Source: a virus. Taken from it: a stretch of 21,452 nt of DNA. Both the position numbers and the translations under genes were made by a program. Shown here piece by piece: positions 308-20,386 of this stretch; position 1 is the stretch's first letter, and each line of letters opens with the position of its first letter. The DNA is taken from IMG/VR virus record IMGVR_UViG_3300025769_001003, positions 1 to 21,452 of that record, one strand, 5' to 3'. Under the pieces are notes generated by a model. That model saw nothing but the letters and a program-made list of their open reading frames with translations. It was not told the DNA's origin and did not search any database.

Positions 308-315
308 TAGTCGAA

Positions 316-352
316 ACAGGCGAGAGCCTGTCTTGCAGGTTGGCAACTGCAA
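316..352 (+). other. Two adjacent RNA hairpins in an intergenic gap
   Basis: Positions 316-331 form ACAGGC-GAGA-GCCTGT, a perfect 6-bp stem closed by a GNRA-type tetraloop. Positions 333-352 form TTGCAG and CTGCAA around an 8-nt loop. There is no T-run, so these are not ordinary intrinsic terminators. They could be an RNA processing or mRNA-stability element between the genes at 74-307 and 392-688. Confidence 0.4.
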
Positions 353-366
353 CTGATGAGACAGCC

Positions 367-390
367 ACCAATCAATACACCAATCAATAC
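367..390 (+). repeat. Tandem 12-mer ACCAATCAATAC x2 before a start codon
   Basis: Two perfect head-to-tail copies of ACCAATCAATAC (367-378 and 379-390) end one base before the ATG at 392. A third copy with one change lies at 62-73, also next to a start. Related C/A-rich stretches such as AATACAATACACC precede other starts. It is probably a non-SD leader; an operator function is the alternative. Confidence 0.5.
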
Positions 391-6938: not shown

Positions 6939-7109
6939 ATGAACGAACACATATCAGAAGCCACCGAAATCACCCTTAACCTTTACGATTCAATTGATTC
7001 GTACAAGTTCACTCCAGAAGTGCAGGTGAAATACAAAGCTCTTGGTCAGTGCTTACGTTCAATCATGGAGATACTTCAGGATGAACGAAGAAAACGCACC
7101 ACCGCATAA
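6939..7109 (+). CDS. Hypothetical helical protein, 56 aa
   Basis: A short gene beginning MNEHISEATEITLNLYDSID and ending in a basic helix (IMEILQDERRKRTTA). Its start follows TATTTAAAACAC. The frame stays open into, and overlaps, the first 29 bases of the DnaB-type helicase gene, which would allow translational coupling. Codon use is like that of the neighbours. Function unknown; a helicase partner is only a guess from position. Confidence 0.45.
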   Translation: MNEHISEATEITLNLYDSIDSYKFTPEVQVKYKALGQCLRSIMEILQDERRKRTTA

Positions 7110-8406
7110 CTTAGAAGCCGAGACTAGCCTGATCGCATCCTGTCTGGATGCATCCGATTCGTCAGTCTTCGACACCGCATCAACCATCGTCAACGCTGGC
7201 GATTTTTATTCAGCACGTGGGAGATTCCTCTGGGAAGCTCTCCACAAGCTGGCCAACACTGGGTTACCCATCGACGAGATCCACCTTTGCGAGGCCCTGA
7301 AGGGGTCAAATACGCTGGATGAGATCGGGGGAGTAACAGGTATCATGTCCCTCATGGACTCCGCTACAACGGAGCCACAGGCCCTGCATTACGCTAGGCT
7401 GGTAGCCGAGAAGTCTAACCTGAGAAAACTTATCCGGGAGTGCCGGATCGCTCAGGAGAAGGCAACCAACGAGGGCTATGAGTTCAATGACATTCGGTCC
7501 GAACTCGAGACCAATGTCCTCGAGATTAATTCACGTGACTCACTTGGGTACAGCGTCAAGGAGTCCTTGGACTCCATCGTATCGGACATCGAACTAATGC
7601 AGTCCGGTGAGTACGTAGCCGATGTAGTCAAAACAAATGTCGGCAGGCTGGACGGATTCCTAGGGAACGGAGGGATCGCCGCCGGGGAAGTGCTTACACT
7701 TGCAGCACCCACCTCCTGCGGGAAGTCAGCACTCGCACTGTACATCACAGCGAGAACTATGATCGACCAAGGGACACCCGTTGCTTACTTCTCCTTCGAG
7801 ATGCCGCAGAAACAACTGATGAAGCGGATGGTTCAGACCATATCAGGAGTGAACATCCGTTCCATTGAGCAGGGTTACGCTACGCCGCAGGACATCACAG
7901 CCTTCAGTGAAGCGACTGACCGATTAGCGGGGCTGCCTATCAGTACTGTTCATTCAGTCAAGGGTGCTGATGACCTCGCCAGTCAGTCCAGATACCTAGT
8001 CAGGAAGAAGGGCGTTAAGCTCATCGTCATTGACTACCTCCAACTGATCGGGTTTAACTCAAAGTTAAGCAAGGCAGAGGGGATCGCCGGCATCAGCCAC
8101 AGAATCAAAGAGATAGCACTGGACCTCAACGTCTCAATCGTACTGCTCGCTCAAGTAAATCGTGAAGGAGCCAAGAGGGAGACAGGCCTAAGCCTGTACG
8201 ACCTCAAGGACTCCGGCGATATTGAGAACGATGCCGACATCGTGATGCTTATGTGGCCTTACAATGGAGATGTTGAATCCAGCAAGGACAAAGATTACCG
8301 AGGCCCTTACACTGGACTCTCTTACAGGATAGCAAAGAATCGTGAGGGTGAACGTGACGTAGGGGACTATTTAAAATTCTATCACCAAACAGGAAGGTTT
8401 ATGTAA
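7081..8406 (+). CDS. dnaB: DnaB-like replicative helicase
   Basis: 441-aa helicase of the DnaB/SF4 family, which unwinds the phage replication fork as a hexamer. The N-terminal domain begins APPHNLEAETSLIASCL (6-22), the standard DnaB opening. The RecA core has Walker A APTSCGKSA (209-217), YFSFEMPQKQLMKRM (236-250; the FSxEM motif), Walker B LIVIDYLQLIG (314-324), IVLLAQVNREGAKR (353-366) with the sensor Gln, and GDIENDADIVML (379-390). Length is normal for the family. The start at 7081 is chosen because it gives the conserved N-terminus; a TTG at 7042 would add 13 unlikely residues. It overlaps the small upstream gene by 29 nt and the next gene by TAATG. No full primase is visible nearby, so priming may depend on the host or a gene elsewhere. 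Confidence 0.93.
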   Translation: MNEENAPPHNLEAETSLIASCLDASDSSVFDTASTIVNAGDFYSARGRFLWEALHKLANTGLPIDEIHLCEALKGSNTLDEIGGVTGIMSLMDSATTEPQALHYARLVAEKSNLRKLIRECRIAQEKATNEGYEFNDIRSELETNVLEINSRDSLGYSVKESLDSIVSDIELMQSGEYVADVVKTNVGRLDGFLGNGGIAAGEVLTLAAPTSCGKSALALYITARTMIDQGTPVAYFSFEMPQKQLMKRMVQTISGVNIRSIEQGYATPQDITAFSEATDRLAGLPISTVHSVKGADDLASQSRYLVRKKGVKLIVIDYLQLIGFNSKLSKAEGIAGISHRIKEIALDLNVSIVLLAQVNREGAKRETGLSLYDLKDSGDIENDADIVMLMWPYNGDVESSKDKDYRGPYTGLSYRIAKNREGERDVGDYLKFYHQTGRFM

Positions 8407-8753
8407 TGCATATCAATGACGAATTATTTTTCAACGACAGGAGCCAGCAGGGTAAATTTCTGGACTGGGCGCACGAGAGAATCAAAAAAGAAATCGAGGA
8501 CATCGAGTACATGGAGGAGGAGTACGGCACGGCTGAGTGGACAATCCCAACGGTCGAAAGAAAACCCAGCCAACGGCTGACCGATGAACAGAAGTTAAAA
8601 ATTATTGAGCAGGTGGACGGGCTGCGTGATGATGGGTACACCTATCGACTGGCTTGTGAGTGCTGCGACGTAGCGCATTCGTCGTACACCAAGTGGAGAA
8701 AGAAGTTCGGCTTACCGGAATACAAACAAGGGGGTGCAGGGATTTCGACTTAA
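8406..8753 (+). CDS. Helix-turn-helix protein, 115 aa
   Basis: The N-terminal half (1-50) is an acidic, probably coiled helix (IKKEIEDIEYMEEEYG). The C-terminal half (57-107) has the layout of a transposase- or repressor-type helix-turn-helix: LTDEQKLKIIEQVDGL, GYTYRLACECCDVAHSSYTK, then WRKKFGL. It may bind DNA as a regulator; no catalytic domain is attached. It starts in the stop of the helicase gene (TAATG). Its last eight codons and stop lie inside the tmRNA-like element starting at 8730, so its final residues (GGAGIST) are dictated by that RNA's sequence. The functional protein may end nearer residue 107. Confidence 0.65.
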   Translation: MHINDELFFNDRSQQGKFLDWAHERIKKEIEDIEYMEEEYGTAEWTIPTVERKPSQRLTDEQKLKIIEQVDGLRDDGYTYRLACECCDVAHSSYTKWRKKFGLPEYKQGGAGIST

Positions 8754-8795
8754 CCTCGGTTAAGGACGCTGGTTCGACTCCAGCCACCTCCACCA
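8730..8795 (+). ncRNA. tmRNA tRNA-like domain without mRNA part (mimic or attP)
   Basis: A 66-nt element with all parts of the tmRNA tRNA-like domain. Acceptor stem GGGGGTG (8730-8736) pairs with CACCTCC (8785-8791) over seven pairs, including G3-U70 (8732/8789), the alanine identity pair. Discriminator A (8792) is followed by encoded CCA (8793-8795). The D-loop analogue holds GGGATTTCGAC, matching the conserved tmRNA 5' box. GGAC (8764-8767) and T-arm GCTGG-TTCGACT-CCAGC (8768-8784) match the 3' end of ssrA genes. Between the two, where normal tmRNA has about 300 nt of reading frame and pseudoknots, there is only a hairpin (CTTAAC-CTCG-GTTAAG, 8749-8764). It could be a tmRNA-mimicking small RNA, or a phage attachment site copied from a host ssrA gene. 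No integrase lies in the window. Confidence 0.75.
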
Positions 8796-8839: not shown

Positions 8840-8998
8840 ATGAATGAAAACCTAGAACGCATACAGACTCAGATCGAAATGATCCGCAATGAGTCCCGTA
8901 TCCTATCGTACCGCATCGAGCGTATGACCGAGCAAAGAAAGGAACTACAGGACGAAAAGCGTAGACTCAAAGAACTACTGAGTACGTATACTGTATAA
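8840..8998 (+). CDS. Coiled-coil mini-protein, 52 aa
   Basis: A short gene from ATG 8840 to TAA 8996-8998 encoding an almost uninterrupted charged helix: ENLERIQTQIEMIRNESRIL, then RIERMTEQRKELQDEKRRLK. Heptad-like spacing of I, L and M predicts a coiled coil. It is the last gene of the + arm, following the tmRNA-like element and preceding the terminator. It has no Shine-Dalgarno sequence and possibly a nearly leaderless transcript. Function unknown; transcription- or translation-modulating phage proteins can have this form, but nothing here proves it. Confidence 0.5.
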   Translation: MNENLERIQTQIEMIRNESRILSYRIERMTEQRKELQDEKRRLKELLSTYTV

Positions 8999-9038: not shown

Positions 9039-9049
9039 ATTGGTGGTGA

Positions 9050-9088
9050 CCCCATCTCTCTGCGTAGCGGGGGGGTGGGGTTTTTTTT
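9050..9088 (+). terminator. Rho-independent terminator ending the + arm
   Basis: CCCCATCT (9050-9057) pairs with GGGTGGGG (9073-9080) using two G-T pairs, followed by eight T's (9081-9088). The T-run overlaps the stop codon of the minus-strand gene ending at 9087. It separates the two convergent transcription units. Confidence 0.8.
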
Positions 9089-11747
9089 ATAATGCACCCG
9101 GAGGTATGAAGGTAGGAAGCTCTCCCTCCCTCAGCCTTCGCTGGAACTCACGTTGTTCCCCTGCTCTACCGAATCCAAATAATCTATTTAATACATCCGA
9201 CATCGGGGCCAGTGTAACTAATTTACTATCCGTGATTGCACGTTGCCCGGACAGGACACGCTGCACGGCAGCAGTGTTATCCACGAATTGCTGTATTCCT
9301 ACTGGAGTTATGAAATCAAAAGCCGCCTGACCTATGCCTTCTTTTCGTGCCACAAAAGTTTGGTAACGGCTGATGCCGAACAAACGAGCAACCCCGTTGA
9401 ACATGTAATCACTGAAGTACCCAGACCGTCCGGCAAGGAAGTCCTTGAGTGCGTCCGCTGGCATCCCCACCATTAACATGAAGAACATAAGTTTAGCTAA
9501 CTCCGTTGAACCACGAAGGGCTTGTGCGGCGTTGCCTGTACCAATACCCTGCGCAATGTCATTGAGCATATTATTCTTCACGAAGGCAAGCTGTTTAATC
9601 ATGAATGACTTCATGGTGTAGAGCATACGCAGGTTCGGATTATCGCTCACAGCTAGTGGCATCTCGAGCCTATTCACTGGCTGGAACTCCAATAACTTAC
9701 GCAAAAGAACCTCACGAACAAACGGATTGTTTCGATCCCCTTTTGCAAAAGCAGCTATGGCTGCATCCGCATCATCCCCGAGTATAAAATCCAATTCGGT
9801 TTTAAGCTTAACTGAATTTTTTGAATTACGATTCTTTAAGTAACCACGGGATAGACTCCTTATGCGCTTGTAGTTCGCACTCAATGTTGTCTCCTTCATT
9901 AGTTGGTCCATCCGGGAAAACCCTGTTGCCTTTAGCCCAATCCGGAGCGCATCAGCCATGAACTTTTTTTCGTTCCGGAACTCAGCACCAATATCATCCT
10001 TGCTGATTCCTACATCCTCGAGACGGAACTCCTTACCGCCGAGCAATGATCCAATAGTACGGAAGAATCCGTTTTGGTACATCTGAAATGGTAGGTCAAA
10101 AATCTGGGAGATAGTTGTGGTTGGCTCAACCAGTAAAGTGAAGTAGCTGAAGGTACGCATGCTGGCCAGCAATGAGTTCTCCTTCATTATTGGATTCAGG
10201 ATAACCTTTGCTAAGTCCGGTAGGGTTCCATAGGCTTGCTCCGAATCAATCTCCCCGTTCTGAAGTAATTCCTGAATCAGTAAACCTAGTTCACCGGGAC
10301 GATCTTGGTTCGGAGAAATAAGCTGCCCATTGTCAGTCTCGTATCTCCTGCCCAGTAGACGCATAGTCTCGGTAGCGGTTGTCATGTTACTGATATATAC
10401 TTCAATAGCCTGACCGGGATCAGCATAGAAATCAATAGCACTATCCTCAATGAACTCGTACGTTCTGGCCTTGGTATGCTTAGTCATTATACCACGCTTA
10501 GTGTACATACCGGAGCGTATATATTTATCGAACTCCAATGCCTCCTCGGTTGAACCCTCCTCGATGATAGGTTTTCTTTTGGTAATATCCGTTTCCTTTG
10601 CCCGGTCCTCGTTGATCCTTTGTATGTAGGAACGGAAGTCCACAGCAACAGTCTTGCCGAGGACCTGTTCTAATTTAGCTAGATCCAGAACACGCCGGGG
10701 AAAATAATCCTCGAGGTAATCAACATCCATACCCTGCTCGTTCGCCTGCTGCCGGATGTCGTCCAGTATCGGTCGTACAACTAGGTTGTATTCATTGAAC
10801 ATACCGTACTTCTGGAGTAGTAGATCCCTTTCCCTGCTTAATTCCACAGCGTCCTGACTGCCCTTTACCGATGGGCTGTAGTACAATAACTGTTTCAGCC
10901 TACGCTTGTCTTCTTCATTCCTTATGCCATTAAACTTTTTTATGAATGGGCTGATGCTCTTCAGTCGTTGCTGAATGGTGGAATCCACCTTGTTCAAGTA
11001 CTGCTGAAACAATCTTTCAATCCTTGGGCTGATGTCGCTTAGAACCGTACTGGCTGTATTTATGAACTTATCATAGAAACCAATCTTCTTCTTTTTGCTG
11101 GGCGGGTTAGCTGCATTAACAATGATATCCGTATCAATAGCACCCTTCCCTTCAGCACGATCAGCAATCCTACGTGCCTCACTTGAAATCTTTTGGTTAG
11201 TAATACGTGCCTCCGGATCAGAACGAAGAACAAGATCAACCGAGTCACGGACAACAGCGGCGGCTTCTGGGTTAGTCTCGATGTCCTTGCCAAGTGTTCT
11301 CGCAAGGAACCGTTGAACGGACTTGAGCAGGGACTTGATTGTTTCCCAAGACTTACCACCCACAACGTACTGCTCGGTCACGTTACCATACAGCAGGTAC
11401 TGTATAGCTGCACGAGAATACTCAGCACCGAACTGATGATCCTCTTGCAGGTTAGTGTATACACCAGCAATCGCATCTCTTTGCTCCTGTGTGAGGTCCT
11501 TACCGAGCTTGCCCATGAAGTCCAGCCACGCATTATTGCGGGACTTTGACGGGCTTCTCTGCATCAAAACCTTGTGCATAGCAGCGTGGATAATCTCTTC
11601 ACGCATTGCAGCACGGGTTCCGTCCTGTGTGCGGTTAGTGAACATTGAGCGTGGGTTATACTCGATGTATCCTTTCGTTACATTGTACCGAGCGTCAGTA
11701 GATATCGTGTAGTTCGGTACTATATCTACACCCACCTTGGATGCCAC
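9087..11747 (-). CDS. Giant virion/polyvalent protein, C-terminal part (886 codons)
   Basis: Very large phage protein, probably an internal virion or ejection protein. From a GTG at 11747, residues 5-58 resemble a metalloprotease-like N-terminal domain (VGVDIVPNYTIS; EEIIHAAMH at 50-58). The first zinc His of HExxH is replaced by Glu, so it may be inactive. A long helical region follows (225-330), then DYFPRRV (347-353), a motif I associate with very large phage virion proteins. Near the C-terminus is a hydrophobic stretch (LAKLMFFMLMVGMPADALKD). No good start is seen: no ATG precedes the conserved domain, and coding-like sequence continues upstream of the GTG (RQLEEFIRDNFKAV) up to a TGA at 11805-11807. 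It is therefore more likely the continuation of the 1258-codon ORF through a -1 frameshift than a separate gene. Confidence 0.75.
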   Translation of the reverse strand: MASKVGVDIVPNYTISTDARYNVTKGYIEYNPRSMFTNRTQDGTRAAMREEIIHAAMHKVLMQRSPSKSRNNAWLDFMGKLGKDLTQEQRDAIAGVYTNLQEDHQFGAEYSRAAIQYLLYGNVTEQYVVGGKSWETIKSLLKSVQRFLARTLGKDIETNPEAAAVVRDSVDLVLRSDPEARITNQKISSEARRIADRAEGKGAIDTDIIVNAANPPSKKKKIGFYDKFINTASTVLSDISPRIERLFQQYLNKVDSTIQQRLKSISPFIKKFNGIRNEEDKRRLKQLLYYSPSVKGSQDAVELSRERDLLLQKYGMFNEYNLVVRPILDDIRQQANEQGMDVDYLEDYFPRRVLDLAKLEQVLGKTVAVDFRSYIQRINEDRAKETDITKRKPIIEEGSTEEALEFDKYIRSGMYTKRGIMTKHTKARTYEFIEDSAIDFYADPGQAIEVYISNMTTATETMRLLGRRYETDNGQLISPNQDRPGELGLLIQELLQNGEIDSEQAYGTLPDLAKVILNPIMKENSLLASMRTFSYFTLLVEPTTTISQIFDLPFQMYQNGFFRTIGSLLGGKEFRLEDVGISKDDIGAEFRNEKKFMADALRIGLKATGFSRMDQLMKETTLSANYKRIRSLSRGYLKNRNSKNSVKLKTELDFILGDDADAAIAAFAKGDRNNPFVREVLLRKLLEFQPVNRLEMPLAVSDNPNLRMLYTMKSFMIKQLAFVKNNMLNDIAQGIGTGNAAQALRGSTELAKLMFFMLMVGMPADALKDFLAGRSGYFSDYMFNGVARLFGISRYQTFVARKEGIGQAAFDFITPVGIQQFVDNTAAVQRVLSGQRAITDSKLVTLAPMSDVLNRLFGFGRAGEQREFQRRLREGELPTFIPPGAL

Positions 11748-11804
11748 TGCCTTGAAATTGTCCCTGATGAACTCCTCAAGCTGCCTAACGGAAGCAACCC
11801 ACCT
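11726..11804 (-). other. Overlap of two giant ORFs: likely -1 frameshift zone
   Basis: The upstream ORF (frame of 15502) stays open to 11726, but its last ~20 residues (LRSSSGTISRQWHPRWV) look non-coding. In the -1 frame, open from 11804 onward, the same DNA encodes VASVRQLEEFIRDNFKAV, which leads smoothly into the second ORF. No canonical X-XXY-YYZ slippery heptamer is visible in the overlap. A recent mutation or assembly error is therefore as likely as programmed frameshifting. Confidence 0.5.
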
Positions 11805-14800
11805 TCAGGGGCCGATGGTCGCTGTGCTGTAATAGCCTCAGCCGAGACATCAGATCCTACGGTTACTTCGGATTCCTCTAAGTATTCTTTGGCAGCATCG
11901 ACGAATCGGTCAACCCTTGTTTCGACGGGGATTTCCCCGAAGACTTCCGGGGCGACACGCTGTCCAACCTCCGCAAGTTTTTGTCCGTATTGCTCCCGAA
12001 GACGAACGAGCCTGTCCCGAATCTCCGTTGTGACTCCTCCGGACTGTATTTCTTGTAAATAACTTTCCCCATTTTTTTTATCTCTCCAATCGTTTTCTGT
12101 AAAAGTAGCAATTGCACTATCATCGTCAACTATTAAATCATTTCGTGTTAAAGCGAACTCCTCAAGAAGTGGTTTCAGTGCATTGACCTTTGCTTCCGTC
12201 AATGCTGCGGGTTCTCCGTTTCTGTTGGTTACGCCGAAGATAATGATCCCGGTTCCGTCTAATGAAGGACGACTAGAGAAACCCTGTATAGCCTTTGCAG
12301 CGTTAGCTATTTTCTTATTTGGATCATTTCTTTTTGATTCAATAAACTCAACAAAATCACCAATGTCAGCTTCGTCTAAATTACGAAGAGTCAATGCTCT
12401 ATTGTTTTTGCCGCCCTTGCCCATAACAACGCTGGCTGTGCCAGCCTGCTCAGTAACCCAAGCGAGCGCATTCGTAAAGACACGAACTGCTTCCTCGGAA
12501 CCCATTAGATAGAACTGCCCTGATGGTGCAAGGTTACCTTCCCATGAACCCACGCCGAACTGCGAATCACGCAGAGTTATGGACGGAGCCATTAATTCAA
12601 TCACCGCCGGCACAATGTCGTTCAGAACCTCTTCTGTGACTTGGGTCTTCTGATCCTCGTTCAATTCGTCGAACTTCGGATAGATGCTCGTAATTGCCCC
12701 TCCAAGGCCGTAATCAACCTCAGCGGATACTCGGTAAGTATTTTCAATAAAGGACGTTTCTAGGTCGGATTCCTTGAGTCCGTACTGCCTTAGCGTACGC
12801 ATCCACCCGACCGCTTGGATCTGCGCCGGAAGCCAGTCGCTCTTTCCCTTCCAGCTAATCTTATTCAGGTAATCCGTTAGATCATTTCCCCATTCAGCAA
12901 TCGCTTCGTATTCATTGTTTGATGGAGAACCCTCGAGATCCCGTAGAAGAGTGATTTCTTGCGTTACAACCTGAGGACCTTTTTCAGTAACCTTTGTTTC
13001 ATTGTACCGAAGAACGGCCTCCTCCGGAACAATCTTGTCCTGTTTCTTTTTTGTTTTAGTTATGACAACGGTTGCTGGCTGGCCGTCAACGGTCAGTCGC
13101 CCTGCGTCAGAAAATTCTTTCAACCTCGTAAGGGTCTGCTGATCCAGCTTACCCGAATCCCGGCCCGTATGCACATCAGCAACGAACGGACGACCACCTT
13201 CGAGGTTGTCACCCATGATTGTTCTTGTAGTCCTGCCGTTACCCGCATCAATGAAATCCGATAGCTTTGCGCCTAGACCTTTTTCGGGAACCTGATCCCG
13301 GAAAATGGATTCGAGTTTAGCGTCAGCTAGTCCGCCCTTTTTGCCGTGCTTGATTCCTACTAGACGGTCAATGACCCGGAACGTATTCTGAATACCAGCT
13401 GATGGGGATGCGTTCTGCTGGGACGCAAGCCAAGCAAGCATCATCTTTGGGCCACGATCCGGACCGAACTCCTGAATGAACCGATCCTCTAGTCCATCGT
13501 ACCAAGAACCAGCAGTAAAGATTTCATCGTCAGTGAACCAAGCAGAGGTTTCCTCAGCCCAGCCAGCAAACGATTTACCACCAACGGATCTATCATTACC
13601 AATATGCAACGGCAAGCCATCGACCTCTAGACGAATTGATTCATTCTTGCCCTCGCCTGTACCCTTCTGGCGATTCTTTTTAGCCCTAAGGTTCTGCTTC
13701 GGATCACCTGTTGCGCCACGAATGAACTCAACTGAACCAACCCCGGCCACTACGTCCGGTTCCCCTACGGTAACACGATCATAGACCGGATGCTTCTTGC
13801 CACGTACCTCAATCTCCCCGACCTTATTACCGAGCTTGACTTCGCCTCGTGTAGTTGGGCGACCTCTTGGCTCTGACTTCTTGTCAGGATATGTCTTCAG
13901 TGTCAGCGGTTTGCCGCTGGTGAAGTCCAAGGTATAGTAGTGCTTGCTCCCTTGCTCGACGGATACAATTGTGCTTGGCTCACCCTCTGGGGCCTGCGTC
14001 CACTTCCATCCAGCCTTCTGCTTGAATAGATTACTACGAACCAAAGCACCTTCTTCGGATGGCTTGCGTTCCATGATGGAATCCGTGCTGGTGTCGCTTG
14101 TCTCCAAGACAGGGCTACCACCCTCGATGCGAATACTTCCACCCTCGAAGGTCTGGTCACTAAGATCCTCGGTTGTTTCGAGATCAACAAAGCGGCCCTC
14201 GTCGTATTGTTCGGGCTGGAACTTCTTGAAGAACGGAGGTGCGGCCTCGGCTCTTTCGCCCACGAACCGCTGTGGTATGTAAGTACCCATTGCCTCCGCT
14301 GTAACCTCAGCACCCGGTTCACTAATAATAAATTGCTCATCGAGGTTCGCATCAGTAATTATCTCAAGTGCTGTTCTTTCAGCCTCCTGCTCGGACGATG
14401 CTTGTACTGGTCGAGTTCTTTGGTTCCCGGAATTGTCAGTGTAAGTCACCTCAAAAATCTTTTGACCCCCCGTGGACACGGCTTTGGTCTCACGTGGTTG
14501 GAACAAAGTTCCACGTGACGCTCTTTCAAATGCACCGAAGCCGCCCGCTGTACCGCCACCCACAACACCGCCAATAAGGAACTCATTGAACCTCTGCCCG
14601 AGAACATTCATTGACATTAGTTCACGGTCATCGTCATAGGTTGCATTAGCAAACGAATCAAGTAGCTGGCCCTGTGCTGATTCAGTAAAGCCCTCCGCAG
14701 CGAAGCCCTCGGCGACCTCACGCTTGAGACTCTTCAGTTGTCCGGATGTAAGTTTACCCCCACCCCGTAAGAAATTTTTGAGTCCCGGAACAGTCTTGAG

Positions 14801-15502
14801 AAAGCCAGCACTTTCAAGCGCAGTCCCCAGAACCACATAACCCATGGATGACATAGCGACTTGATTTCTCTCCTCGCTGTCCATTTGAGTAAAAGATTTT
14901 TTAAGAGTCCCTTCGGCATCATTGATTGCTTCGCTAATCATCTGCGGTGCAGCGGAAGCCACAACGCCAGCTACAGCACCGGGAACGCCACCGACTGCAC
15001 CACCGACTGCGCCTGCTGCTAGGCTAACCGGAACCTGCCCGAAGCCCTGAACTATCTGTCCCGGAAGGGATTGGGCGAAGTCCTCATCTAGCCCGATCCT
15101 TTCGCCTATGCTACTAGCTAGGTCACGTAGACGCACTGCATTATCCAGTGCCTTGTTCTTGGCCTGATTCTTCTTTATACGGTGCTGAAGAACTTCCTCA
15201 CGGGTCAACCCTAGCTCCGGCGGTTGCTGGGCTATGTAGGCATCAATAGCCTCATCGCTGGTGTCCTCGTCCTCCGGCATTAGCATACCACGGGCTTGCT
15301 CGAAACCAGCACCTGCATTGATTGCAGCCTGAAGGCCGCCTGTCAGTAGACCCTTGCCTATATCCACCAGAAGACCATCGTCATCAGTAGATGTCTCGAA
15401 CTGCCTTGCAGCGAACGCAATGATCTGATCCTCCGTAGCACCCTCCGGGTGGTTGATACGAAGAACCTGACCGCTTGGAGTATTAACGGAGGTTATAGGC
15501 AT
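11726..15502 (-). CDS. Giant virion ejection/polyvalent protein, N-terminal part (1258 aa)
   Basis: Begins MPITSVNTPSGQVLRINHPE, then GATEDQIIAFAARQF (21-35), a short helical motif common at the start of phage internal virion and polyvalent proteins. Residues 149-185 (VPVSLAAGAVGGAVGGVPGA and following) and 308-325 (FLIGGVVGGGTAGGFGAF) are Gly/Ala-rich hydrophobic stretches resembling glycine-zipper membrane segments, as expected for proteins that enter the host envelope during DNA ejection. A conserved-looking block at 667-700 has WYDGLEDRF and MMLAWLASQQNASP. No lysozyme or transglycosylase active site was identified. The gene lies after the 534-aa gene with a 1-nt gap and before the 886-codon ORF, with which it probably forms one ~2150-residue protein. 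Confidence 0.75.
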   Translation of the reverse strand: MPITSVNTPSGQVLRINHPEGATEDQIIAFAARQFETSTDDDGLLVDIGKGLLTGGLQAAINAGAGFEQARGMLMPEDEDTSDEAIDAYIAQQPPELGLTREEVLQHRIKKNQAKNKALDNAVRLRDLASSIGERIGLDEDFAQSLPGQIVQGFGQVPVSLAAGAVGGAVGGVPGAVAGVVASAAPQMISEAINDAEGTLKKSFTQMDSEERNQVAMSSMGYVVLGTALESAGFLKTVPGLKNFLRGGGKLTSGQLKSLKREVAEGFAAEGFTESAQGQLLDSFANATYDDDRELMSMNVLGQRFNEFLIGGVVGGGTAGGFGAFERASRGTLFQPRETKAVSTGGQKIFEVTYTDNSGNQRTRPVQASSEQEAERTALEIITDANLDEQFIISEPGAEVTAEAMGTYIPQRFVGERAEAAPPFFKKFQPEQYDEGRFVDLETTEDLSDQTFEGGSIRIEGGSPVLETSDTSTDSIMERKPSEEGALVRSNLFKQKAGWKWTQAPEGEPSTIVSVEQGSKHYYTLDFTSGKPLTLKTYPDKKSEPRGRPTTRGEVKLGNKVGEIEVRGKKHPVYDRVTVGEPDVVAGVGSVEFIRGATGDPKQNLRAKKNRQKGTGEGKNESIRLEVDGLPLHIGNDRSVGGKSFAGWAEETSAWFTDDEIFTAGSWYDGLEDRFIQEFGPDRGPKMMLAWLASQQNASPSAGIQNTFRVIDRLVGIKHGKKGGLADAKLESIFRDQVPEKGLGAKLSDFIDAGNGRTTRTIMGDNLEGGRPFVADVHTGRDSGKLDQQTLTRLKEFSDAGRLTVDGQPATVVITKTKKKQDKIVPEEAVLRYNETKVTEKGPQVVTQEITLLRDLEGSPSNNEYEAIAEWGNDLTDYLNKISWKGKSDWLPAQIQAVGWMRTLRQYGLKESDLETSFIENTYRVSAEVDYGLGGAITSIYPKFDELNEDQKTQVTEEVLNDIVPAVIELMAPSITLRDSQFGVGSWEGNLAPSGQFYLMGSEEAVRVFTNALAWVTEQAGTASVVMGKGGKNNRALTLRNLDEADIGDFVEFIESKRNDPNKKIANAAKAIQGFSSRPSLDGTGIIIFGVTNRNGEPAALTEAKVNALKPLLEEFALTRNDLIVDDDSAIATFTENDWRDKKNGESYLQEIQSGGVTTEIRDRLVRLREQYGQKLAEVGQRVAPEVFGEIPVETRVDRFVDAAKEYLEESEVTVGSDVSAEAITAQRPSAPEGGLLPLGSLRSSSGTISRQWHPRWV

Positions 15503-15503
15503 A

Positions 15504-17108
15504 CTAGTTGTCTACAGAAAATCCGGGAAATTTATTGAGACCGAATGATGAAAGTATGGCCCTGCCTCCGGCAGTCTGATTCAGCAGATTAACCGCACGA
15601 TTGTACTCAGCGGAACCGGGCTTTAGTTTCTGGGTAGGCGTTCTGAGATTACCCTTACTATCAATTGTCAGACCACCCTCCCCGATCCGGTCAACCCCGA
15701 GGGACTCCAATGAAGCATTAATCTGGCTAGATTTTACTGGATCTTGTTCGGGATTCAATAAATTTATAAGATCAGCCTGCGCTGCTGCTAACTGAACTTC
15801 CTTGGTTCTTGTCGTAAGTTCCGCTTGAGTTAGTTTAGCAAGATTAGCTTCACGTTGCTCCGGAGTAAGCATTGCAGTGTCAAGACCCGGCAGGCCACCC
15901 AGTGCTTGGCCAATAGAACTCCTTGCGAATCGAGCCAGTCTATCGACTTCGTCCTGAGTACGCATGGATGATTGTTTAGAAAGTATTCCAGTAATCTCGC
16001 TGGGAATATTTTGTGCGGACGGTAACTGTATTTGCCCTCGCTGATCAATCATTCCTGACGGAACATTGCCCCCGAAATTATCACGAAGCATTTGTTGACG
16101 AACTAGTCGTTGTTCACGCTCGTCAAGTGGCTGGCCCGGTCCACGCATACGTTCACGATCCATCCGATCTAGCTCCTGTATCTGTGAAATAGTTGGTGCG
16201 CCCGTCCTTCCACCCAAGCTGGACTGACTCAGTATTGCTTGCTGTGTAGCAGCTACACCCCTATCCATGACCGGAGCGGAGCCCATTGCTCCGTAACCTT
16301 TCTCGGGATCAAAAGTAGTACCCATTGATGCAGCGTATATTTTAGCTTGCTCTGTTTCAAAATCATTCAATGGTCCACTCTTGATACGATTTTCAAAGTT
16401 ATCCTGCGGGGACATCGCATCAGGCGTTTCCCGGTTTATAGCTGAATCAAGTAGGATAGTCCCCTCGTTGTCCATGCGTGGACCAACCGATCGAGCGGGG
16501 GCTGATGCGCCCGCTGTGTCAAAGAAACGAGTAGCATCGGGTGTGTATTGAACGCCCCCTCCAACAAGTGGTAATCCTTGTACCGATGTAGCCTCCTTAG
16601 CTACCTCCATTGGTGTACGATCTCCTTGTCCCGTTAAGTCCTGAACCGTTTGGCTTACACCCCTCAAAACAGCAGCCGGAAAATTAACTGTTCCAGTTGG
16701 GTTTAGAACCTGATTATTAATAGCCTGACCCGGTCCCCCGTACTCAGTGGAATTTCTAACAATTTCTGAGTAAGGATTAAAAATGTCGGCCTGCATCATG
16801 CCCGGAGCCATATTCATTTCTCCAAGCGTGGGGGTGCTATCAAACACCGGGGCTTTGGGTTCATCAACACCATTCGCTTGTGGCACTGAAGTCCCTGCAT
16901 TCTGTTGGGAGTCATTTGCACCACCCGTTGCGGTTTGATTCGGGATCATCCCGAACCTGTACGCATTACGAAGCCCCTCGTCCCCTATGGGGGAAAAGGG
17001 GAGAGTGCTTTCCGCCGTTGAGGTTTCACCGAATGCACGAGTATCCCGCAGGATTTTTTTAAGCTGCTCGTCTTCGTCGATTGTGTTTCCAAATGGGTCT
17101 ATAGCCAT
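15504..17108 (-). CDS. Virion-associated protein candidate, 534 aa
   Basis: No recognised domain. It begins MAIDPFGNTIDEDEQLKKIL. Much of it is rich in G, P, Q, T and N and probably disordered (including MDRERMRGPGQPLDEREQRL), with a helical region near residues 380-460 (RLARFARSSIGQAL; AELTTRTKEVQLAAAQADLI) and a C-terminus ending FPGFSVDN. Position directly before the giant protein, and the composition, suggest an internal-core or scaffolding-like virion role, but this is inference. It has its own consensus promoter at 17115-17143, with the predicted transcript start at the ATG. It ends TAG-T-ATG with the next gene. Confidence 0.6.
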   Translation of the reverse strand: MAIDPFGNTIDEDEQLKKILRDTRAFGETSTAESTLPFSPIGDEGLRNAYRFGMIPNQTATGGANDSQQNAGTSVPQANGVDEPKAPVFDSTPTLGEMNMAPGMMQADIFNPYSEIVRNSTEYGGPGQAINNQVLNPTGTVNFPAAVLRGVSQTVQDLTGQGDRTPMEVAKEATSVQGLPLVGGGVQYTPDATRFFDTAGASAPARSVGPRMDNEGTILLDSAINRETPDAMSPQDNFENRIKSGPLNDFETEQAKIYAASMGTTFDPEKGYGAMGSAPVMDRGVAATQQAILSQSSLGGRTGAPTISQIQELDRMDRERMRGPGQPLDEREQRLVRQQMLRDNFGGNVPSGMIDQRGQIQLPSAQNIPSEITGILSKQSSMRTQDEVDRLARFARSSIGQALGGLPGLDTAMLTPEQREANLAKLTQAELTTRTKEVQLAAAQADLINLLNPEQDPVKSSQINASLESLGVDRIGEGGLTIDSKGNLRTPTQKLKPGSAEYNRAVNLLNQTAGGRAILSSFGLNKFPGFSVDN

Positions 17109-17114
17109 AGCGGT

Positions 17115-17143
17115 ATTATATCATATAGGGTTAGAGAATGTAA
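17115..17143 (-). promoter_or_regulatory. Consensus promoter with predicted leaderless start
   Basis: On the minus strand: TTACAT (17143-17138), a 17-nt spacer and a perfect TATAAT (17120-17115). Only six bases separate the -10 box from the ATG at 17108, so transcription should begin at or within about two bases of the start codon. It would allow separate expression of the 534-aa and giant-protein genes. Confidence 0.6.
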
Positions 17144-17147
17144 AAAA

Positions 17148-17765
17148 TTAAGTAGTCGCAGCCATAGTAATGGATACAGCAAGGTCAGTTGTGTCATTGT
17201 CTAAGGTAATAGCTGCCGTAGTAGCTTGCATTTCTATTATCACCCTAACTGGAACCACGGAGGCGGGACAATCCAGAGTGGAGTTATAGGAAGCCGAAGT
17301 ATCGGGATCGCCAGATACCCCCGTATCAGTCACGGAGACCTTGGAGACTCCACCTACAGTAGCACTAATAATAGATTTCGTTTCGTTGACTGGACCAGAA
17401 CCACCTGCGTGATTCTGACTACTTGCGGTTGCGGAAAAGTTTAGATTGAATTGAAAATCAACAGCAGCTTGATACGAAAATTCTATACTTTGAAATAAAT
17501 TAACATTGCTTGGGTTATTGCCTGTTATTGTGGCAGTTCTATTTTTAGTAAATGGCAAACCAACTACTTCTTCCAAATTACTAGATCCAGTTCCTGTAAA
17601 AAAAACATTATCCGTTGCCCACTTATGCAGGTCGTCTGGGTCGCCCCTGTCCACCCAGTCTTGTTTATTGCAGTTCACATATATGCCAGTACTCCCACTT
17701 GGACCCTGAAAAGTGTTCCCGCTAAAAGTGGCAAAAGGCCCTGATCTAAGGATGGGGTTAGGCAT
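17148..17765 (-). CDS. Beta-rich structural protein candidate, 205 aa
   Basis: Begins MPNPILRSGPFATFSGNTFQ. The composition is rich in S, T, N, V and A, with few charges and an alternating strand pattern throughout (for example VDFQFNLNFSATASSQ and VVPVRVIIEMQATTAAITLD). No signal peptide or membrane segment. This is typical of virion decoration, tail-fibre or receptor-contact proteins, but no family is recognised. Its start shares an A with the stop of the upstream gene (TAATG), and it is followed by a 39-nt gap with a promoter. Confidence 0.55.
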   Translation of the reverse strand: MPNPILRSGPFATFSGNTFQGPSGSTGIYVNCNKQDWVDRGDPDDLHKWATDNVFFTGTGSSNLEEVVGLPFTKNRTATITGNNPSNVNLFQSIEFSYQAAVDFQFNLNFSATASSQNHAGGSGPVNETKSIISATVGGVSKVSVTDTGVSGDPDTSASYNSTLDCPASVVPVRVIIEMQATTAAITLDNDTTDLAVSITMAATT

Positions 17766-18235
17766 TATGTGGCCTTAGTTAAGAAGATCCTCGTCCCAGC
17801 GGTATTATTTGACTGAACAATATCTAAGGTTTGTTCAGCGAACCCAAATAGTGTTTCATCCGCTTCTTCGCTTCCTCCTTGTCCGGGGTCAAGATTTTTA
17901 GTAGCATCTGGGGCAATAGTGCTATCAGTACCACGCTGACTTATATCTGAATTAGCATCAGTCTGGTTTTTGCTTGGCTCGTATTCAGTAGATAAATCAA
18001 ACAAAGCCTTATCACGGGCGGCATCTGCGGCCTCCTTTATTTGTCTTCTTCGTGATGCGGATGTAGCACGAGACAATGCTTCACGTTCCTGTCTTCGTAT
18101 GTTTCTGCGAATCCTACCCTCTTCACGGGTTCCTCGTTGTCGATCAAGGGACTCCTTTTTAGATCGGGCTTTTTCTTCCTTAGCTAAATCACGATCCAAA
18201 TAAGCACTCTGCCTGAACTCATCGAACTCATCCAT
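17765..18235 (-). CDS. Charged helical protein, 156 aa (virion-associated candidate)
   Basis: The first 85 residues are a very charged helix (RDLAKEEKARSKKESLDRQR, then RNIRRQEREALSRATSASRR) likely to be coiled coil. A polar linker follows (90-125), and the C-terminus is a less charged segment (ETLFGFAEQTLDIVQSNN, then TRIFLTKAT). Size and position among structural genes recall small internal virion proteins such as T7 gp14, but sequence similarity was not seen. It lies one base after the start region of the 634-aa gene's stop and ends by TAATG. Confidence 0.55.
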   Translation of the reverse strand: MDEFDEFRQSAYLDRDLAKEEKARSKKESLDRQRGTREEGRIRRNIRRQEREALSRATSASRRRQIKEAADAARDKALFDLSTEYEPSKNQTDANSDISQRGTDSTIAPDATKNLDPGQGGSEEADETLFGFAEQTLDIVQSNNTAGTRIFLTKAT

Positions 18236-18236
18236 A

Positions 18237-20141
18237 TTACATATTTCCTACTGCCGTACAGGTAGCGATTACAATTTGCTTTTGAAATATGTTAGTCCCG
18301 TCCTTGTCCGTAAACGCTTTCTTAACATTTACATCAAGTGTATACTTTTGCCCGACAGGGTCCGGGGGACCACCAGAAACTTTTAATCTACCAGAAGCAT
18401 TGAATCCAACTCTACGGCCTTCTATTGACGCTACACGACTTGCGATTGCTTGGCTATTTACAGTAGTGCTGCGAGCAGTTGTTATGATTTCTTCTTCACT
18501 TGTCGAAGGAACTTCAACAATTAAATCAGTACCCCAATTCGCATCAGAGGGTAGTGTTTCGGTTCCGTCAGCAGCCTGTTTGACTGTCGTAAATGCTACA
18601 TTCAAGTCACCGGGTCTATCGTATGATGATTGATAACTGTCAGTCCCCGAAGCAGCATTTCTTCTGGTTGAACTTATGACTCTATAGGTTGTATCACTTG
18701 TGTTGGAGGTAAAGTCAGCGGGGTCATTTCTTGAGACATCATCTTTAAATTTAATAATCCATCTTGTTCCATCGTATTCGACTCTAACAGTAATTCTCCC
18801 GCTTATAAAGTAGCTTTTTGTACTCGTGCCTTGCCAAGTGCCACTAGCGGGACCACCTGAACTCCAAGTTTGTACTTGGTACTTTCCTGAATCAATTACA
18901 TATGATATTGGATCTGATTGAAATGCAACTTTACCGTTTACCAAAGATCCCTCTTGTTCTAGATGAATATTTTCTATAACGGTACTAACCACTTTGTAAG
19001 GATCAGTAGCTGTGTCTATTTGAAGCCCGCCCTCTCTGGAAAGAACTCCTGTGTCCCCAGTAAGCGTCAAGGAGGATCTAGTTCTGTAACCTCTTAAACC
19101 TTGATTGTTATGATAAGCTGGCTGTATACGACTATTCTCAATAAACGGAGAAATAAATGCTTCTTTTTTCGCCCAGCTACTTGGGTTCCATAAACCCAAA
19201 GAACTCTCTTTGGTAAAATCACCGTCTACAATATCTGCTGATCTTTGGTAATATGTATAAATGTCAGCCTTTACAATAGCTTCTACAGGTGCTTCTAATT
19301 TAGTAAAAACAGAGCTACCGATTCTCTCAACGTTTACAACCCCCGGAAAAGTAAAGGGGACTAGTTTCTCGTACTCGAAGGCAAGCTTCTCCCCACCGCC
19401 TGAACTAGTTAAAGTAGTTCCATCTGACTTAGAAATAAAAGATGTAGTAAATCTTTTAAGCCCCGAAAAATTATCTGTGTCCTGAGAAATTATGTAGTTA
19501 TCAGCATTAATGGTAGGAGCCGTAACTAGATCCTGCTGGGTAGTTTGCAGTACACCATCCCCGATTGGACGAATATCTTTAGCCAATGTACCTGCTTGAA
19601 TAAATGTTTGCGTAAGGGTCCTTGATGAATCCGTATCATCAACTTCAAATGATGCCAAGAAACAACGGACAGCGGTCTCCGAATCTATTTGGTGATCAAT
19701 GAAATCACTACCTACCGTATCCTCCGAAGAAGGAACATCCGTACCCGCTAGTGCTATCTTTTCTCGTTGTACTCTCCGTAACCCATTTAGCTCTAAGTCC
19801 ACGGTATCGTCCTTTACTTGAACAAATGTTCCGCTTAGCGTTTCGTAGACTAACTCAATGACGTAATCATCTCCACGACCAATGGACTCAGTGGTAACGA
19901 GTCGCATATTGTCGTAGGCTTCACCAGATCTGTTATCTAGCCCATCAACAACTGGGCTACCCGTATCAGAATACAGACTACCATATGTAAGGAATATGTT
20001 AGCCTTGTTTGTATTGAACCAATCGTTCCGAGGGTTCAGGGGCCTGCATCGCAGAGTAAGCCGATAACGGCCATTCTGTAGCTGTTCTACGGCTGGCTGA
20101 TTGATTAACTTTAGCCGATTAGTTCTGTGCGATATAGACAT
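18237..20141 (-). CDS. Large beta-rich tail/virion protein candidate, 634 aa
   Basis: Begins MSISHRTNRLKLINQPAVEQ. Nearly all predicted strands: an N-terminal domain (GRYRLTLRCRPLNPRNDWF; ANIFLTYGSLYSD), a central part with aromatic and Gly/Ser-rich loops (KYQVQTWSSGGPASG), and a C-terminal domain ending IFQKQIVIATCTAVGNM. No enzyme motif. This fits a tail or host-contact structural protein, but no family was recognised. The ATG at 20141 is preferred over a TTG at 20153 because it forms the TAATG stop-start overlap seen through this gene cluster. Confidence 0.6.
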   Translation of the reverse strand: MSISHRTNRLKLINQPAVEQLQNGRYRLTLRCRPLNPRNDWFNTNKANIFLTYGSLYSDTGSPVVDGLDNRSGEAYDNMRLVTTESIGRGDDYVIELVYETLSGTFVQVKDDTVDLELNGLRRVQREKIALAGTDVPSSEDTVGSDFIDHQIDSETAVRCFLASFEVDDTDSSRTLTQTFIQAGTLAKDIRPIGDGVLQTTQQDLVTAPTINADNYIISQDTDNFSGLKRFTTSFISKSDGTTLTSSGGGEKLAFEYEKLVPFTFPGVVNVERIGSSVFTKLEAPVEAIVKADIYTYYQRSADIVDGDFTKESSLGLWNPSSWAKKEAFISPFIENSRIQPAYHNNQGLRGYRTRSSLTLTGDTGVLSREGGLQIDTATDPYKVVSTVIENIHLEQEGSLVNGKVAFQSDPISYVIDSGKYQVQTWSSGGPASGTWQGTSTKSYFISGRITVRVEYDGTRWIIKFKDDVSRNDPADFTSNTSDTTYRVISSTRRNAASGTDSYQSSYDRPGDLNVAFTTVKQAADGTETLPSDANWGTDLIVEVPSTSEEEIITTARSTTVNSQAIASRVASIEGRRVGFNASGRLKVSGGPPDPVGQKYTLDVNVKKAFTDKDGTNIFQKQIVIATCTAVGNM

Positions 20142-20386
20142 TAGCAATCCCAAGCCCTGCGGCTCCAGTAGTTAGCGGATAGTTTACTGTTAGCTCCCTT
20201 GATGCCAGCACTTCTTGAGCAGTAGCTCTTCTTTCTGGCAGGGATGTTTTTCTTGATTGTCATATTGGCATCACCAAATCGGATGAGTTTTTCTTTGCCA
20301 CCTTCGCAGCCCTTCACGACGAACTTCTTCCCACCCTGAACTTCACGGCGGGGGACGTTGCACTTCATCTTTGATTTGTCAGCCAT
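20141..20386 (-). CDS. Small basic Cys-containing protein, 81 aa (DUF6321-like)
   Basis: Begins MADKSKMKCNVPRREVQGGK. Lysine/arginine-rich with four cysteines (residues 9, 28, 56 and 81). The later part, IRFGDANMTIKKNIPARKKS followed by YCSRSAGIKG, then LSANYWSRRAWDC, resembles the small DUF6321-type proteins of marine phages and large algal viruses; the family name is given from memory. Possibly DNA-binding or a minor virion component. Both ends overlap neighbours by one base (TAATG). Confidence 0.55.
   Translation of the reverse strand: MADKSKMKCNVPRREVQGGKKFVVKGCEGGKEKLIRFGDANMTIKKNIPARKKSYCSRSAGIKGANSKLSANYWSRRAWDC

Follow-up and report, generated by a model that had tools for sequence, protein, structure and literature searches.

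The 21,452-nt stretch of DNA analyzed here (the window; a 21.5-kb virus record from an uncultured phage) carries on its + strand, at 8730–8795, a 66-nt tmRNA reduced to the tRNA-like domain (TLD), hereafter called a mini-tmRNA. The initial annotation had described a stand-alone TLD with the messenger part swapped for a small hairpin, and this was confirmed. In the reading that we favor, with a probability of roughly 0.6, the element is a functional phage TLD-only tmRNA gene, whose charged RNA would compete with host tmRNA and blunt tagging.

The acceptor stem of 7 bp is formed by 8730–8736 (GGGGGTG, with G3 at 8732) and 8785–8791 (CACCTCC, with U70 at 8789), and G8732–T8789 corresponds to the G3–U70 pair; the 3' portion (8785–8795) continues through A73 and an encoded CCA (8792–8795). 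Between the two strands lie the D-loop box TTCGAC (8744–8749), the GGAC box (8764–8767), and a T arm of 5 bp with the 7-nt loop TTCGACT (8768–8784). All of these parts, including the A discriminator, were found where they had been reported earlier. Minimum free energy folding of the 66-mer returned exactly the expected three-helix TLD, with a folding z-score that is weak by itself (−1.6). In place of the messenger domain, 14 nt separate the TTCGAC and GGAC boxes, and P2 is a capped hairpin (CTTAACCTCGGTTAAG, 8749–8764; 6 bp with a CTCG loop) that replaces the mRNA-like domain and pseudoknots. The Rfam tmRNA model RF00023, proposed earlier as a check, matched 8730–8795 over its full span (model positions 1–374; 57.6 bits against a cut-off of 47; E 1.9e-20) with a deletion of approximately 310 positions, which, together with the fold, established the small hairpin in the messenger position. 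The whole-model score, the acceptor with G3–U70, the T arm, and both boxes are those of a tmRNA, whereas the mRNA-like domain with a tag reading frame and pseudoknots, a criterion of tmRNA membership, is absent. As a phage RNA gene with little beyond the TLD, the element is of the kind described for mycobacteriophage DS6A. The permuted two-piece tmRNA model RF04321 reached 24 bits, under the 47-bit cut-off. ARAGORN, run on the window, made no call at the mini-tmRNA, and the usual annotation pipeline would therefore miss it; this silence and the missing D stem and anticodon arm also led us to reject an ordinary tRNA.

Compensatory changes preserve the fold. For 17 distinct variants of 64–69 nt, the covariation score was 0.504, compared with 0.140 (sd 0.019) for shuffled alignments, and none of 500 shuffles reached it; slid-alignment controls gave 0.102 at most. 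Pairing was observed in 96.7% of the cells, a value lowered rather than raised by two sequences (L141 and L154) that were off by one at the 5' end of the alignment, and 12 of 18 pairs changed on both sides. The covariation that the initial annotation proposed to look for in the acceptor and hairpin was present in all three helices, including five of the six hairpin pairs. The 5' acceptor strand and D-loop box, which it had pointed out as present and still pairing, proved to lie in a half as conserved and covarying as the 3' half. As compensatory changes in many related phages preserve both the fold and the alanine-charging mark, the window element is very probably a working RNA.

Pattern scans of IMG/VR retrieved at least 140 contigs with GGGG/CTCC acceptor ends and 18 further contigs with GGGT/ATCC ends. 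Because the patterns fixed A73, TTCGAC, GGAC, and G3–U70, the constancy of A73 and of both boxes among the matches is no evidence; acceptor pairs 5–6 (one scan) or 5–7 (another) were left free. Among the matches listed, 139 of 140 viral contigs had seven of seven acceptor pairs and five of five T-stem pairs, and the sole exception (L132) is probably a chance match. Positions 5–7 were paired, by many pair types, in every one of 117 distinct sequences, which came from viruses, genomes, and a single isolate. A pattern scan of 84,980 prokaryote genomes found the element on only 11 contigs, mostly from metagenome-assembled genomes, compared with at least 139 viral contigs; the mini-tmRNA is therefore mainly viral. 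Nine of the ten mini-bearing prokaryote assemblies searched also had a separate full-length ssrA and SmpB. SmpB was absent from the window and from all 34 larger carrier records, and the 34 carriers also lacked a full one-piece tmRNA, every RF00023 match above the cut-off being a mini-tmRNA. Partial blastn matches in Acinetobacter, Alcaligenes, and Pseudomonas phages yielded no mini-tmRNA by the block parser.

Two architectures were distinguished. In the first (64–69 nt), P2 is a short hairpin, whose loop is CTCG in the window and the classical cUUCGg in two relatives (L135 and L142). In the second (72–85 nt), P2 usually has 4–9 bp and is followed by a URAAR-like bulge and a small inner hairpin, the loops of which interchange among CATG, CACG, and GNRA. 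P2 of the longer class was visible in single folds and position-wise pairing; RNAalifold found no structure in the MAFFT-aligned inserts, because their stems are misaligned. For this class, a tiny tag frame was considered and rejected, since the GCA by the inner hairpin is unconserved and the loops swap.

Among phage isolates, Stenotrophomonas virus Jojan60 has an unannotated mini-tmRNA (61.8 bits) on the same strand as four tRNA genes, the closest of which is 191 nt away. Streptomyces phages LuckySocke, pSt2308, and BRock have unannotated mini-tmRNAs (57–64.5 bits) within tRNA arrays. Streptomyces phage GiJojo has a 97.4% match beneath an annotated protein gene, and the Alone3 isolate has a degraded copy (36.8 bits). 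The hypothetical protein over the GiJojo element (gene 44, 1499–1741; L167, PP725410.1) is probably an overcall. In Jojan60 (L128, ON045087.1), the deposited strand of the four tRNAs at 1795–2309 is opposite to that given by ARAGORN and Rfam. Full-length tmRNAs occur in other Streptomyces phages (Muntaha and Blueeyedbeauty) and in Mycobacterium phage Kumao.

As ssrA is a frequent integration site, the element could be an attP or an imprecise-excision relic of a host ssrA, and six of the 34 carriers do encode a tyrosine integrase. The initial annotation had argued for more than a simple attP, and this held: the TLD is complete and covaries as a whole, its 5' half included, and the window and 28 of the 34 carriers lacked a tyrosine integrase (PF00589), the one integrase type that the searches covered. 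Where present, the carriers' integrases lie 1.4–36 kb from the mini-tmRNA. In nine assemblies with both genes, paired through assembly binning and used as proxies for the window phage's own host, the 3' 28 nt of the mini-tmRNA and full-length ssrA shared 18–27 positions in runs of only 4–21 nt, shorter than the common core of 30–45 bp described in PMC10865867. Conservation restricted to the last 30–45 nt with a variable 5' half, the pattern that would have reduced the element to an attP, was thus not what we observed, and the copies are not 30–45 nt ssrA fragments. On these three lines of evidence, an attP origin was rejected as highly improbable. Equally improbable is that the element is half of a split tmRNA with its messenger piece elsewhere. 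Two-piece tmRNAs are known from marine phages (PMC9004378), but their acceptor strands are on different RNAs, whereas the 66-nt RNA contains both, and the tetraloop that closes P2 (cUUCGg in L135 and L142) leaves no docking end for a second piece; a split tmRNA was rejected on both counts.

tmRNA invariably has G–U at pair 3, a potent determinant for alanyl-tRNA synthetase (AlaRS) (PMC3985003). As our patterns fixed G3–U70, control scans with an altered pair 3 were performed. Neither G3–C70 nor A3–U70 retrieved a single contig, and in the background of a U–A pair 4, 18 contigs had U70 and none had C70. Over the 78 nt aligned, the sole difference of LuckySocke from one contig (L059) is pair 4, where both sides change (G–C to U–A) and G3–U70 is kept; the BRock acceptor (GGGTTTG/CAAATCC) also has G3–U70. 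The zero matches in three control scans and the pair-4 switches that keep U70 indicate that selection maintains the AlaRS identity pair in the mini-tmRNAs. PMC4131195 describes a TLD-only RNA as inhibitory to tmRNA "whether or not chargeable", so that simple titration alone leaves the retention of G3–U70 unexplained. The strict pair suggests that the natural mini-tmRNA may act in its alanine-charged form on the ribosome, beyond titration of SmpB, which refines the earlier decoy idea.

In the decoy reading, the mini-tmRNA would be co-transcribed with the early + strand genes and, most likely, cut from the early transcript by host tRNA-processing enzymes. Host AlaRS would alanylate it via G3–U70, and host SmpB and EF-Tu would bind the charged RNA, the TLD being the crucial SmpB-binding region (PMC3022190). 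It would then enter ribosomes stalled on truncated mRNA in competition with host tmRNA. As the mini-tmRNA has no tag reading frame, there would be no template on which to resume, nascent chains would stay untagged, and the host tagging and degradation route would be blunted during infection. Transcription, processing, charging, binding to SmpB and the ribosome, and a benefit to the phage are what we infer from the gene. Precedent supports a decoy role: according to PMC4131195 and PMC11915505, an RNA similar to the TLD-only tmRNA of DS6A strongly inhibits tmRNA, and phage tmRNA has been suggested to counteract host tagging (PMC5648845).

A charged mini-tmRNA with SmpB might instead take the nascent chain and free the ribosome untagged, aiding phage translation. 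Such tagless rescue has been suggested for tag-less organelle tmRNAs, which in mitochondria co-occur with a mitochondrion-targeted SmpB (PMC11915505). It fits the strictly conserved charging signal, and the positions beside tRNA arrays in large phages suggest translation support. However, with the stop codon missing, no release step is evident, and PMC4131195 reports inhibition rather than rescue; we consider tagless rescue possible but clearly the less probable explanation. Some other use of a small alanylated RNA, such as sequestration of AlaRS, EF-Tu, or alanine, or a regulatory role unrelated to SmpB, is unlikely. G3–U70, the acceptor, and the T arm would suffice for AlaRS and EF-Tu, but the deformed D-arm region with TTCGAC, which faces SmpB (PMC3985003) and is unneeded for either, is kept in the window and isolates, with the caveat that the box was fixed in the collection patterns.

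The kind of molecule is already known from DS6A and from organelles. According to PMC4131195 and PMC11915505, which cite Mao et al. 2009, DS6A has a "TLD only" tmRNA, like the window element a phage-borne RNA with little beyond the TLD; DS6A is a different phage, and the likeness is one of description. The CDS-less plastid tmRNA of Mallomonadaceae (approximately 65 bp; PMC11915505) has the same size and no tag frame but is an organelle gene. Jakobid mitochondrial tmRNAs (cited in PMC3985003 and PMC11915505) have also lost the mRNA-like region but are mitochondrial and one- or two-piece. The tmRNAs of Muntaha, Blueeyedbeauty, and Kumao have the same TLD but retain the messenger domain (280–407 nt as annotated), and those of the two Streptomyces phages sit in a tRNA array. 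The TLD fragments used for SmpB co-crystals (cited in PMC3022190) also have no messenger domain but are man-made. P2 is shortened in such fragments.

In the largely open-access literature searched, DS6A was the one phage with a TLD-only tmRNA on record, and the breadth, the two architectures, the selection for charging, and the named isolates were not found. What is new is that viruses commonly have TLD-only tmRNAs, that ARAGORN misses them, and that they are conserved for charging. Widespread, charging-selected mini-tmRNAs make it directly testable whether RNA decoys are a routine means by which phages disable or commandeer trans-translation, and LuckySocke, GiJojo, pSt2308, BRock, and Jojan60 are named isolates that bear one.

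The + strand of the window holds the replication module (exonuclease, endonuclease VII, DnaG-type zinc-finger protein, ERF annealing protein, and DnaB). The DnaB helicase gene (7042–8406; Pfam PF03796 and PF00772), presumably in the same operon as the mini-tmRNA, is followed by a 115-aa HTH_Tnp_1-like ORF with homologues in relatives (8406–8753), the mini-tmRNA, a 52-aa ORF conserved in relatives (8840–8998), and a strong terminator-like hairpin (9048–9082; 16 pairs and then a T run) that would end the unit. Large − strand genes converge on this unit; those at 9087–20153 (886, 1258, 534, and 638 aa) presumably encode virion proteins.

Where matched, DnaB of related phages is 28–68% identical to that of the window. 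Their mini-tmRNAs lie on the strand of the early genes at varying sites: directly after DnaB (L058) or 12 nt after it (L093 and L127), before endonuclease VII (L142 and L143), adjoining a p4178 homologue (L145 and L015), or upstream of an exonuclease or hydrolase (L119, L136, and L140). HTH ORF homologues lie nearby in L142, L093, L127, L015, and L145. The mini-tmRNA behaves like a mobile yet retained cassette. It is dispensable in places, as the Alone3 copy is decayed and a search of the related phage C75C1 found none.

The HTH ORF of the window overlaps the mini-tmRNA by its last 24 nt, and its TAA stop (8751–8753) coincides with TLD nucleotides 22–24, where the p4178 homologue (L015 and L145) also stops. 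Since these stops are inside the mini-tmRNA, the mRNA of the HTH ORF or the p4178 homologue would become a non-stop mRNA once the RNA was excised. A broader proposal, speculative and rather doubtful, is that phages commonly turn charged, template-less tmRNAs against ribosome rescue, in two architectures (64–69 nt with a capped P2, and 72–85 nt), and that the window phage also uses one as a switch, in which excision would remove the HTH stop and the HTH protein made from the non-stop mRNA would accumulate untagged only once host tagging is blocked.

The window phage belongs to a poorly known lineage: five − strand proteins queried against PHROGs had no match, and tblastn of the 638-aa protein against 50,697 phage records found nothing. 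A type II hammerhead ribozyme (RF02276; 40 bits, cut-off 37) lies at 309–370 (+), where the early module starts, 5' of a 110-aa ORF. Another contig (L006) also has a type II hammerhead (9834–9895) together with a RAGATH-24 RNA (10429–10624), and L119 has sub-threshold twister-P1 (40.2 bits) and RAGATH-24 (31.8 bits) matches at 9433–9595, approximately 0.9 kb from its mini-tmRNA. Phages of this group may commonly carry self-cleaving RNAs.
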